In this document: positions 24,323 through 63,684 of the stretch, one piece after another
Position numbering within the stretch: the stretch's first letter is position 1
Layout of the letters: the number at the start of each line of letters is the position of its first letter
Assembly: GCA_963924555.1 (NCBI GenBank)
Contig: OZ004585.1
Coordinates: forward strand, 4,787,488 to 4,851,487
DNA: 64,000 nucleotides
Reading direction: 5' to 3'
From: Crambe crambe
Taxonomy: Eukaryota > Porifera > Demospongiae > Poecilosclerida > Crambeidae
Made by a program: the position numbers and the translations under genes
The notes under the pieces: model-generated
Database searches by the model: none
Told to the model about the DNA's origin: nothing
Seen by the model: the letters and a program-made list of their open reading frames with translations, nothing else

Positions 24323-24470
24323 TTATATAGTGCAGAGTTTATCATTGATTGCTGAGAACTCAAGGTATCCAGCTACTCTTTCCAGACGTGAGTTAATATC
24401 ATTAACCAAGTCTTCAAAACAGGGTCTTTTTTCAGGTGATTCTTCCCAACATTGTGTGACCAACGCATAC
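24323..24470 (-). CDS. RTK-A exon 12: kinase C-lobe end and stop
   Basis: Reads [20 protein letters not shown], then [20 protein letters not shown] and [12 protein letters not shown]. CW...PEKRP.F is the conserved end of tyrosine kinase domains. The tail after the kinase is only about 20 residues, so docking tyrosines there are limited to YLEF. Confidence 0.9.
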
Positions 24471-63200: not shown

Positions 63201-63684
63201 CTTTGTTTTACTTTGAGTGACACTGCTAACAGGAACCACAATGCCAAATGGCCATGGATAAATGGAGACTCTTTTGTATAGAGGTCATAATTGAGATAGC
63301 TGCTATATTATAGTACTTAACTAGCTACATACTATAAATCCTATTATACAAGTAGGACATTGCATACATACCATAAAACGTGATAGCCCTTGAGTATTCT
63401 TCTCTAATAATGCAGCGAACACTTGCCTCGAAATCTTCAGTTATGTTATATGTGAAATACTCCTCATTTTTGTCTGTAGACCGAATTCTGATAAGCATAC
63501 CCATACTGTCATTAATCTCAAATCTTGCATCAGGACGAACCATACCGTCAATTGGATCACGACACTCAAATCTGAACACATTTGGAGTTTCCCTTCGTGA
63601 AGGAAAGTAGAATTCCAGAACAGGAATCCCCGAGACAGTATAGATGGAGCACAAAATTATAGTGCTAATAAGCAAAGAGACCAT
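44991..63684 (-). CDS. IgR-C: kinase-less receptor with ITAM-like tail (7 exons)
   Basis: Exons 63684-63372, 52736-52398, 50329-49973, 49659-49621, 49446-49402, 46043-45683, 45267-44991; 1731 bp, 576 residues, every join in frame. Signal peptide (MVSLLISTIILCSIYTVSG), N-terminal domain, complete Ig1 and Ig2, two tandem 13-15-residue Ser/Thr/Pro stalk exons, a transmembrane helix (IIGVGVGIAAISLIAVIITI) and a ~175-residue tail. Tail motifs: DPNYSTV, YEEILDHPNTYNIV (YxxI-x6-YxxV, ITAM spacing), PAYAVS, and YEDIKLCSYLGI (YxxI-x4-YxxI). Vertebrate ITAMs are YxxL/I-x6-8-YxxL/I and recruit tandem-SH2 kinases; here the second half ends in Val. The 10.6-kb first intron is repeat-filled, and exon 1 could belong to another gene, so the N-terminus is less sure than the rest. 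Confidence 0.7.
45683..46043 (-). CDS. IgR-C exon 6: transmembrane and proximal tail
   Basis: GSQFTIIGVGVGIAAISLIA then VIITIIAAKIRINVIQVRTS; tail EVEISDDDPNYSTVRPLKST matches IgR-B nearly word for word. Acceptor ttcattatag, donor gtatgatcta, phase 2 out. Confidence 0.82.
47290..47530. mobile_element. foldback family 2, copy 1 (partial)
   Basis: Contains gcagcgatgtagggtttatg and gcagcgatgtagggtttagc, with the end cctacatcattctttcattt then agaag. Matches parts of 58453-58790. Confidence 0.55.
47560..47815. mobile_element. foldback (FB) element, copy 6
   Basis: Arms aagggaaaaagcatttctgt... and the inverse; the left arm has lost part of the ccctacatatac apex. In IgR-C intron 5. Confidence 0.8.
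48066..48945. mobile_element. hairpin-ended element E2, copy 1 (forward)
   Basis: Starts with the hairpin agagagtgtggtagcgctctct, then atgtagggatgacctatgac. It is collinear, in inverse orientation, with 60140-61378 (ggctgaaagactcaacacgg; tgagactacactcttatgaa; gaagctatagatgtacagca). No coding frame. About 880 bp, in IgR-C intron 5. Confidence 0.75.
49050..49310. mobile_element. foldback family 3 (long perfect arms)
   Basis: Arms of about 105 bp (aatgaaggtgatgtagggat ... gcaaggatgaagtcgaat and inverse) around gggtgcagtcactaggtgtg. It shares tgtagggatgac and the aaaaag / gaaacaag spacing with the FB family but is otherwise different. Confidence 0.85.
49402..49446 (-). CDS. IgR-C exon 5: stalk unit 2
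   Basis: A 45-bp phase 1-1 exon, (A/T)TTQSLTSDSPAAS, acceptor attcttcaag, donor gtatatactt. A duplicate of the next exon upstream. Confidence 0.65.
49547..49562. repeat. C-rich tract
   Basis: A run of C with few interruptions in an intron of IgR-C; no function inferred. Confidence 0.8.
49621..49659 (-). CDS. IgR-C exon 4: stalk unit 1
   Basis: A 39-bp phase 1-1 exon, ATSTQPDSPASPE, acceptor atttttctag, donor gtatgtactt. Being symmetric, either stalk exon can be skipped without a frameshift. Confidence 0.65.
49973..50329 (-). CDS. IgR-C exon 3: Ig2 domain
   Basis: A 357-bp phase 1-1 exon. [40 protein letters not shown], then INTTLEIKTGELHSV and YAINCIAEQN. Complete Cys-Trp-Cys core. Acceptor tattatttcag, donor gtaagtgtga. 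Confidence 0.85.
50755..50940 (+). repeat. possible tRNA-derived SINE
   Basis: GTGCTAGTGGTAAGCACTTC (A-box-like) and CCTGGTTGGAACCACCG (B-box-like GGTTGGAACC) are about 35 bp apart. The same module is on the minus strand at about 21725-21900, and fragments lie at 53020-53290 and 54120-54200. Confidence 0.4.
51370..51503. mobile_element. short TIR element (GCACCCTTCAGT)
   Basis: Arms gcacccttcagtccatggaa(taccatgat) and (atcatggta)ttccatactgaagggtgc, about 130 bp overall. Non-coding. Confidence 0.7.
51540..52280 (+). other. degenerate low-identity coding remnant (unrecognised)
   Basis: Plus-strand text around 51620-51785 gives a short open stretch (LDRRIEAEALNQRNRDGQGL then GHATLNATFKVVASL) and 51995-52185 another, but stops and frame changes separate them. 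Probably a dead mobile element; I do not recognise it. Confidence 0.3.
52329..52359. repeat. C18-A13 homopolymer tract
   Basis: Run of C directly followed by a run of A, between Ig1 and Ig2 exons of IgR-C. Confidence 0.9.
52398..52736 (-). CDS. IgR-C exon 2: Ig1 domain
   Basis: AIPTVSNHNTITGAFCDDTY, AMLMCPIPLPTVRNSYTIIW, then [20 protein letters not shown]. 113 codons, phase 1-1. The donor CTAG|gtacac is weaker than in the paralogues. A truncated FB element begins about 20 bp upstream of the acceptor. Confidence 0.8.
52755..52880. mobile_element. foldback (FB) element, copy 7 (truncated)
   Basis: One arm only (gtgaaatgaaaaagaatgta ... gggtagcttcagattatagt), ending just before the IgR-C exon 2 acceptor. 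Confidence 0.75.
53932..54036. repeat. ~100-bp palindrome
   Basis: cttattacacgagtcagcgt ... gatatttcacgagccgaag, then the inverse to acgagtgtaataag. It lies beside a pair ttattcttacag / ctgtaagaataa (54040-54395), perhaps the ends of a small element. Confidence 0.8.
54890..55445. repeat. minisatellite-like array (cagctgacccgttgca units)
   Basis: Diverged ~22-24-bp units based on gcagctgacccgttgcacaa repeat at least eight times. A larger ~230-bp unit (54905 and 55130) includes gtgacaggcagc, aactaaataacgggacagcc and a TAGTCTCGCGAG-type palindrome (55035-55072; 55256-55290). Confidence 0.8.
55528..55735. mobile_element. foldback (FB) element, copy 8 (right half)
   Basis: tgtagggattgttggctaga through tgtgtatgcagggacagaag; left arm missing. 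Preceded by the atgagtcatgacttgagagt repeat at 55488. Confidence 0.75.
55848..55955. repeat. two hairpin-terminus copies
   Basis: cagagagtgcggtagcactc occurs at about 55854 and 55917, the second followed by tctatgtagggttag. Confidence 0.75.
56880..57830. repeat. R1 dispersed repeat, copies 2 and 3
   Basis: Two tandem-like copies share gagtctcatctctgtctgca, acatggagacggtagta and acctgatgcgcagtccaaaa with 18970-20145. Copy 3 (57150-57830) is uninterrupted and supplies the empty sites for insertions in copies 1 and 4. Confidence 0.75.
57898..57981. repeat. (TAA)n microsatellite
   Basis: About 80 bp of imperfect then perfect AAT/TAA repeats. Confidence 0.98.
58453..58790. mobile_element. foldback family 2, copy 2
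   Basis: Arms begin atttcttctaaatgaaagag and end ctctttcatttagaagaac; inside, ctgctaactgtca and tgacagttagcag and acgatgtagg repeats are mirrored. Non-coding. Copy 1 is at 47290-47530. Confidence 0.75.
58830..59720. repeat. R1 dispersed repeat, copy 4 (interrupted)
   Basis: Left part 58830-59122, right part 59566-59720, split by the CATAGG element. Same block order as the other copies. Confidence 0.7.
59123..59565. mobile_element. CATAGG-family TIR element, copy 2
   Basis: Starts CATAGGCGTAGGAAG, ends CCCCACACCTATG plus TT. 5-bp direct repeats TATTA (59118-59122, 59566-59570). The uninterrupted R1 copy near 57490 reads gctattaatacgg, confirming the insertion. Confidence 0.75.
60182..60641 (+). 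mobile_element. TIR element with tRNA-like Pol III module, 9-bp duplication
   Basis: 460 bp flanked by perfect 9-bp repeats TTCTTTTTT (60173-60181, 60642-60650). Inverted ends CGAAGTGGCTATTCG and CGAATAGCCACAGCG are extended by gtccggcagccggatac. Copy 1 of E2 gives the empty site. Inside, 60455-60530 reads like a tRNA head: a D-arm-like GTGTATTGGTTAGTGCCG and a perfect B box GGTTCGATCC. A second, partial TIR lies at 60222-60241. Confidence 0.8.
60455..60530 (+). ncRNA. tRNA-like Pol III promoter module (not a functional tRNA)
   Basis: A-box-like TAGTGTATTGGTTAGTGCC and B box GGTTCGATCC at normal spacing, followed by cttctttttcttctttc. The T-arm stem does not close beyond two pairs and no acceptor stem forms, so it is a tRNA-derived SINE-type head. 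Transcription is inferred only. Confidence 0.5.
61880..62155. mobile_element. foldback (FB) element, copy 9 (degenerate)
   Basis: Arms are recognisable (catgaaatgaaatagggatg; ggatcaatcttcgttctgta; inverse after 62060) but with many losses. Confidence 0.65.
62160..63324. other. non-coding with repeat fragments
   Basis: No exon recognised. The stretch 62385-63100 begins gagaaaagggaccgcttcacgc and ends gaagtggtcccttttctc, so it is probably a TIR element of about 700 bp (tentative). Confidence 0.45.
63372..63684 (-). CDS. IgR-C exon 1 (probable): signal peptide and N-terminal domain
   Basis: MVSLLISTIILCSIYTVSG, then IPVLEFYFPSRRETPNVFRF and FEASVRCIIREEYSRAITFY. Donor gtatgtatgc, phase 1, as needed for exon 52736. 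It is the nearest upstream exon of the right type on this strand; the distance (10.6 kb) is the main doubt. Confidence 0.75.

Follow-up and report, generated by a model that had tools for sequence, protein, structure and literature searches.

A 64,000-nt stretch of the genome of the sponge Crambe crambe (positions 4787488–4851487 of contig OZ004585.1, hereafter C8; the window) carries three neighbouring genes, RTK-A, IgR-B and IgR-C, whose predicted products share an extracellular architecture built from an N-terminal (N) domain and immunoglobulin-like (Ig) domains and end either in a tyrosine kinase or in a tail with tyrosine motifs. Searches of the whole 143-Mb assembly (119 contigs) suggest that the three neighbours are a few among many members of a single-pass receptor family that has expanded within one chromosomal complex, a family in which one N–Ig1–Ig2 architecture is joined to a kinase (K) or to one of two other output modules (I and L), and in which nearly the same ectodomain occurs on I and on L tails. 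We put the probability of this explanation, taken as a whole, at roughly 55%.

RTK-A has the make-up of a receptor tyrosine kinase (RTK), with a signal peptide and N domain, Ig1, Ig2, a transmembrane (TM) segment, a juxtamembrane region and a tyrosine kinase domain, in that order (Table 1). The signal peptide and the single TM segment were recognized by eye, and the complete kinase by Pfam (PF07714 at amino acids 476–751, E value 7e-86, profile positions 1–257 of 258) and by a search of Protein Data Bank (PDB) sequences, in which the best solved kinases include EGFR, Axl, ROS, Mer, Ret, FGFR and Met; the K/HRD/DFG signature is retained. The Ig2 domain reaches 29.6 bits with Pfam Ig_3, the cut-off being 30. 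The exon order of RTK-A recurs in 10 further kinase genes, as far as their DNA was fetched and their exons detected.

IgR-B and IgR-C have no Pfam kinase match, their models end in tyrosine tails, and no kinase exons lie between the three genes; a sequence-only reading of the window, according to which RTK-A alone leads into a kinase, is thus borne out on this point. IgR-B is a hybrid, in which an L-type TM exon is followed by an I exon, and IgR-C belongs to the L class. Ig2 of IgR-B gives a weak Pfam match (15 bits) and that of IgR-C none, Ig1 of IgR-B matches basigin only at an E value of 0.38, and a predicted model of Ig1 (pLDDT 41.5) was too poor for a fold search. When the window was searched with the Ig2 of RTK-A and IgR-B, only the second half of the IgR-C Ig2 was found and not the first; a repeated element, itself without a Pfam match, occupies the stretch with the missing half. 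The IgR-C frame survives the skipping of Ig2 because the Ig exons are of phase 1-1.

Table 1 Genes, exons and associated elements in the window (positions within the 64,000 nt)
Feature	Position	Strand	Remarks
RTK-A gene	34602-24323	minus	12 exons, 775 amino acids (aa); splice model open end to end
RTK-A exon 1, signal peptide and N domain	34287..34602	minus	phase 1 at end
RTK-A exon 2, Ig1	30889..31224	minus	phase 1-1; 55% identity with IgR-B Ig1
RTK-A exon 3, Ig2	30443..30829	minus	phase 1-1
RTK-A exon 4, TM segment	29376..29613	minus	splice model
RTK-A exons 5-12, juxtamembrane and kinase	24323..29114	minus	splice model, Pfam
IgR-B gene	63684-44991	minus	5 exons, 548 aa; open splice model
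IgR-B N domain exon	63684-63372	minus	splice model
IgR-B Ig1 exon	52736-52398	minus	splice model
IgR-B Ig2 exon	50329-49973	minus	splice model
IgR-B L-type TM exon	46043-45683	minus	splice model
IgR-B I-type tail exon	45267-44991	minus	VMYEEI-x6-YNIV and HEYEDIKLC
IgR-C gene	44110-40266	minus	518 aa; open frame only with Ig2 skipped
IgR-C N domain exon	44110-43795	minus	splice model
IgR-C Ig1 exon	42951-42625	minus	splice model
IgR-C TM and L tail exon	41179-40266	minus	contained in database open reading frame (ORF) P0002
IgR-C Ig2 residue, 3' half	41286..41476	minus	out of frame after Ig1
Repeated element between IgR-C Ig1 and Ig2 residue	41565..42365	plus	like 32133-32970; translated ORFs compared by eye
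Next gene upstream of IgR-B, 3' part of Ig1	63896..64000	minus	window edge

The sequence-only reading had assigned to all three genes a common signal peptide, N domain, Ig1 and Ig2 with the same exon phases. A signal-peptide-like stretch can be seen by eye in each gene, and the N and Ig1 domains are homologous throughout, with BLAST identities of 65% (N) and 79% (Ig1) between IgR-B and IgR-C, 41% and 55% between RTK-A and IgR-B, and 47% and 52% between RTK-A and IgR-C. A common Ig2 holds for RTK-A and IgR-B but not for IgR-C with its half exon; likewise, matching phases were found for RTK-A and IgR-B, in which N, Ig1 and Ig2 end in phase 1 and both Ig exons are symmetric (1-1). The broader idea of one ectodomain architecture carrying either a kinase or a tyrosine-motif tail stood up well and extends to the whole gene complex.

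Across the genome, the Ig1, N and Ig2 exons have at least 104, 94 and 85 matches, of which at least 86, 77 and 74, respectively, lie on C8; these counts are lower bounds and include fragments. Copies outside C8 lie, among other contigs, on C1, C10, C13, C15 and C20. Of the C8 Ig1 places, 85 of 86 span 3.92–6.14 Mb, a cluster of 2.2 Mb; the remaining one, at 6.56 Mb, is broken. By the nearest downstream tail, and with some genes entering more than once, the 86 places divide into 25 with a kinase (among the kinase matches listed, 150 of 1123 candidates having been scored), 26 with an I exon, 18 with an L tail (three of them hybrids like IgR-B) and 17 with none. At least 26 kinase-exon matches are listed on C8; for those at 4488 and 5221 kb the map shows no clear ectodomain that would belong to them. 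In the fetched DNA we found 11 kinase genes through Ig1 matches in stretches chosen from the map, 10 on C8 and one on C18; all have the N exon and 10 of the 11 a full Ig2 before the juxtamembrane and kinase exons, and in three the TM exon was undetected. One kinase receptor gene (C8 4140215–4142090) has three successive full Ig1 exons, which may represent a longer ectodomain or alternative exons. Copies with the same score occur at 4899/5165, 4910/5175 and 5844/5848 kb and may be recent segmental duplications or retained haplotypes.

In a typical member, N, Ig1 and Ig2 each occupy a phase-1 exon of their own and are followed by a phase-1 intron leading to module K, I or L. The I and L tail exons differ in kind. 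The I module comprises a short TM exon, the sequence of which was read for three genes, and an exon with the motifs V-x-YEEI, CPAY, HxYED and SAYGV, whereas the L module is a single long exon encoding the TM segment together with many YxxV/I motifs, among them NYSTV, NYEEIDL, IYSAVNKK, IYAVVDKKKPKxPPRSS and NYSVIDKK. The relatives found in protein databases (2 and 5 matches, the 2 being within the 5) are all nameless tail ORFs. A TM exon of the IgR-B type, 88–89% to P0003, precedes the I exon at three places (4833, 4871 and 5876 kb), whereas its counterpart at 5088 kb (82%) continues as an L tail; an exchange or truncation of tails is suggested by this. P0003 had been considered as a tail swap documented solely in another assembly; this idea was dropped in view of the similar L continuation at 5088 kb. 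The I exon has 62 genome matches, 32 of them on C8, and is reused on C6 at the end of a receptor of a different family, whose ectodomain exons (7 kb read) look Ig- and FN3-like by eye, the two tested having no Pfam match. The same I-type tail exon marks a second cluster at C6 7739195–7914496, and further I-exon matches lie at C6 5.01–5.14 Mb and on C9, C14, C18 and C66.

The sequence-only reading went further and proposed side-by-side kinase and substrate receptors with matched binding domains, that is, RTK-A as the kinase partner of IgR-B and IgR-C, its substrates, through a shared ligand. The genes are indeed adjacent, their three-domain ectodomains are homologous and the tails are rich in YxxI/L/V. 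The tree that the same reading had suggested as a check does not favour such a match. It was built from 42 of 45 gene entries, with three secondary Ig1 copies omitted, Ig1 matches below 75 aa unused and six tail labels assigned manually by coordinates, one of these tails being entered as unknown. RTK-A falls with kinase receptors, the smallest starred group that holds it consisting of RTK-A and five other kinase rows, and its ectodomain is only 44–54% identical to those of its neighbours (N 44%, Ig1 54% and Ig2 54% to IgR-B). Taken alone, the RTK-A Ig2 gives no clean split, reaching 75% to some array genes and 70% to kinase genes. In addition, an array at 4.145–4.33 Mb contains 28 of the 44 non-kinase Ig1 places and, among the kinase matches listed, none of the 25 kinase ones, and therefore a kinase gene next door is not the norm in that stretch. 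The ectodomains of RTK-A and of IgR-B and IgR-C are homologous but without a close match, and on the tree and these identities we rejected kinase–substrate pairing of the three window genes as the main explanation; its probability is low.

On the tree as a whole, kinase and non-kinase ectodomains are separated by two changes, compared with a mean of 9.9 after shuffling. A single origin of the non-kinase ectodomains is neither shown nor rejected: a tree with a single non-kinase clade gives a P value of 0.51 in the approximately unbiased test (p-AU). The non-kinase tail classes behave differently. Among I and L rows only, tail class changes eight times; the L class changes seven times compared with 8.3 on shuffling (66 of 500 shuffles gave as few), and a single L clade costs 335 log units and is strongly rejected (p-AU 4e-52).

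The reuse of ectodomains is clearest in the array (4.145–4.330 Mb). Mean identities of N, Ig1 and Ig2 are 0.86, 0.88 and 0.86 between I and L genes (104 pairs), 0.85, 0.85 and 0.83 between I genes (78 pairs) and 0.86, 0.91 and 0.90 between L genes (28 pairs), so that the I–L mean equals the within-class means for N and is intermediate for Ig1 and Ig2. In the best I–L pair, the L gene at 4189 kb and the I gene at 4200 kb, the three domains are 1.00, 0.98 and 0.98 identical; at the DNA level the pair agrees at 96.9% over 2105 bp and at 98.0% over 700 bp of 5' flank, and the main tract stops just beyond Ig2. In all eight L genes examined, the tract in common with the best I gene ends 34–231 bp past Ig2. 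Near-identical ectodomains on different tails within one cluster, which we take as the mark of paired receptors, were thus found among the I and L genes of the array and not for RTK-A with IgR-B or IgR-C. Across this 190-kb stretch, the non-kinase I and L tails appear to behave like those of paired receptors.

Two technical explanations for this pattern were weighed. The same-score pairs at 4899/5165, 4910/5175 and 5844/5848 kb could mean that the assembly holds both haplotypes in one contig and thereby inflates the copy number. Yet array copies stand in tandem, differ by 10–20% on average and carry different tails, and haplotypic duplication would not produce the I–L mixture, which makes this account scarcely credible. 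Alternatively, phase-1 N, Ig1, Ig2 and tail exons might be combined by splicing across neighbours, in which case the genes as drawn would not be the units. The modelled ectodomain junctions are all of phase 1, the kinase gene with three successive Ig1 exons would be accommodated, and the gene upstream of IgR-B has N and Ig1 exons without an Ig2 before the next N. Against this, most of the 45 gene entries have N before and Ig2 after Ig1, and we regard splicing across genes as very improbable.

The tails themselves were examined for motifs and conservation. YxxI/L/V motifs are enriched over shuffled sequences in all four tails tested (p 0.0015 to 0.036; IgR-B 0.0025, IgR-C 0.032), whereas the attribution by the sequence-only reading to immunoreceptor tyrosine-based activation motifs (ITAMs) did not hold in the strict form. 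IgR-B fits the ITAM consensus only if V is allowed (YEEI-x6-YNIV), and this loose ITAM is retained neither in its 4856-kb relative, nor in the intact I tails of the array (T at position +3), nor in the one C6 receptor read, where the second tyrosine is phenylalanine. Motifs fitting the consensus of the immunoreceptor tyrosine-based inhibitory motif (ITIM) are present in three of the four tails tested (both of the I class, one of the two of the L class); because fits occur in both classes, this consensus does not separate I from L. Tyrosine columns of 12 I tails are conserved at 0.95 compared with 0.81 in other columns. Because the tail sequences are close kin, tyrosine conservation provides weak evidence of constraint.

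Several observations weigh against the explanation that we favour. Strict ITAMs (YxxI/L-x6-8-YxxI/L) occur in none of the four tails tested, and neither tail is callable as activating or inhibitory from its motifs. The 12 I tails were chosen as the better ones, comprising the 10 less broken of 19 stretches together with IgR-B and C6, and the tyrosine columns of 11 L tails (0.84, compared with 0.79 elsewhere) are hardly above background. Tails were given to ectodomains by nearest position or gene order, and many copies are broken by stops or half exons. The L tail at 5088 kb has no detected ectodomain exon in its vicinity and may therefore belong to a dead copy. The end of the shared tract is not diagnostic alone, as six of eight best L–L tracts also end within 300 bp past Ig2 and six of 11 best I–I tracts within 100 bp. 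Nor is the interleaving of I and L genes beyond chance (one L–L adjacency, 2.7 expected, P 0.13), and strict alternation of the two classes was discarded accordingly. Whole-domain positive selection was not seen in N, Ig1 or Ig2 of the array by pairwise NG86 estimates of the ratio of nonsynonymous to synonymous substitution (dN/dS).

The last result deserves a closer look, as it bears on a more ordinary account: lineage-specific expansion of a sponge-type Ig-RTK family in which some copies lost their kinase and kept or acquired tails as adhesion or decoy receptors, much of the array is drifting and the sharing between I and L genes reflects gene conversion only. As ratios of means, dN/dS is 0.43 for N, 0.54 for Ig1 and 0.40 for Ig2; Ig1 is the least constrained, with dN exceeding dS in 32% of 209 pairs. 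With values below 1, positive selection on whole domains is not seen and, at that resolution, there is no sign of an arms race. Ratios of 0.4–0.54 without such selection fit ordinary expansion, as do the many broken copies, the possible segmental duplicates and the L-tail tyrosines little above other columns, and Ig-RTKs are known from a sponge (cited in the accessible part of PMC12018476). Against this account stand the conservation of I-tail tyrosines above other columns, the reuse of the I exon behind another kind of ectodomain in the C6 cluster and the L-tail frames that stay open over 152–331 codons; we consider ordinary expansion rather unlikely.

For the favoured explanation, a receptor family with exchangeable outputs, the anatomy of the genes, the family and its cluster, and the use of one ectodomain with two tails (by gene order) are observed, and the following course of events may be proposed around them. 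Kinase and non-kinase ectodomains would be separate, older lineages, and the non-kinase ectodomains with their 5' regions would have been recently duplicated or gene-converted, placing near-identical ectodomains on I and L tails. Members may bind a shared or similar ligand through N–Ig1–Ig2. Those with a kinase would signal through it, whereas I and L members would be substrates of Src-type or K-type kinases and dock distinct SH2 proteins. Because ectodomains can be practically identical, I and L members would see the same ligand and differ in output, such that a single ligand would elicit two responses, a pattern known from vertebrate paired receptors. A shared ligand, phosphorylation, outputs of opposite sign, a recognition role and immune-type use are what we infer from this arrangement. 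A bolder version, a paired-receptor recognition complex of dozens of receptors with one ectodomain, in which K, I and L outputs were exchanged through a single phase-1 intron and the kinase form is the oldest, is tentative and on the unlikely side.

Candidate readers of phosphorylated tails are numerous. SH2 domains have 135 genome matches, 27 of them inside 54 kb on C5 (1468041–1522148), where 2.5 kb of DNA contain two units of two SH2 domains each (one unit by Pfam), adjoined by an open frame with Kelch repeats. This abundance would fit an enlarged repertoire of tail readers but proves no link. At C14 6544512–6551018, two SH2 matches are followed by kinase pieces, possibly a Syk-type gene, and C16 (4976850–6050423) carries a large cluster of tyrosine kinase matches in long open frames, apparently with no introns in the kinase domain. 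Elsewhere in the window, two open frames on the minus strand (8661–10399) resemble, by eye, Ig domains of another gene, one giving a weak V-set score of 15.6 bits compared with 26 and the other none, and 12296–12964 holds three copies of an approximately 240-bp tandem repeat with an open frame.

To our knowledge, the receptors by which sponges recognize self or microbes are a largely open question. The new element here is a cluster of paired-type Ig receptors with an ectodomain architecture also used by receptor kinases, so that receptor kinases and tyrosine-tail receptors draw on the same design. With its defined genes and tail classes and its I/L pairs of nearly the same ectodomain, the complex makes it possible to test whether paired-receptor signalling existed in early animals. 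Among the open-access literature searched, no title describing it came up; subscription papers lie mostly outside that literature, and prior publication is possible. The accessible passages of PMC11999971, which reviews the invertebrate Ig superfamily, and of PMC8662651, which treats tyrosine kinases, do not describe this complex.

Among sponges, Geodia has kinase-less Ig relatives in its SAM adhesion molecules. An Ig-domain RTK of Geodia cydonium (Schaecke 1994) is cited in the accessible part of PMC12018476. The Geodia RTK and SAM resemble the present genes, by their descriptions, in combining an Ig-like ectodomain on a sponge RTK with kinase-less Ig relatives; they were reported as single genes, in contrast to the gene complex with three tail modules found here.

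In the cnidarian Hydractinia, likewise an early animal, the Alr genes make up a large Ig-like family that is clustered and bears tyrosine motifs in its tails, as here; it differs, by description, in having another ectodomain order and no RTK members. As far as the accessible part of PMC12065747 goes, Hydractinia candidate genes are mentioned together with ITAMs and ITIMs, and the FcoR genes of the tunicate Botryllus are, like the sponge genes, clustered Ig receptors with long YxxI/L/V tails; at some Botryllus loci alternative splicing swaps an ITIM for a hemITAM. The Botryllus ectodomain consists of V-Ig, sushi and C2 domains and the swap is made by splicing, whereas in Crambe the tails sit on separate genes and an RTK class is present.

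The vertebrate paired receptors (KIR, LILR, SIRP and PIR) are alike in having clustered, near-identical ectodomains with different signalling tails, and in both cases ectodomain and tail have become uncoupled by duplication or conversion. They rely on adaptor-type TM charge and on the opposition of ITIM and ITAM; in the sponge, both tail types bear their own tyrosines and a third, kinase-tailed class shares the architecture. If the bolder version outlined above were true, immune or allorecognition logic of the paired type would be older than, or run parallel to, its counterparts in cnidarians, tunicates and vertebrates.

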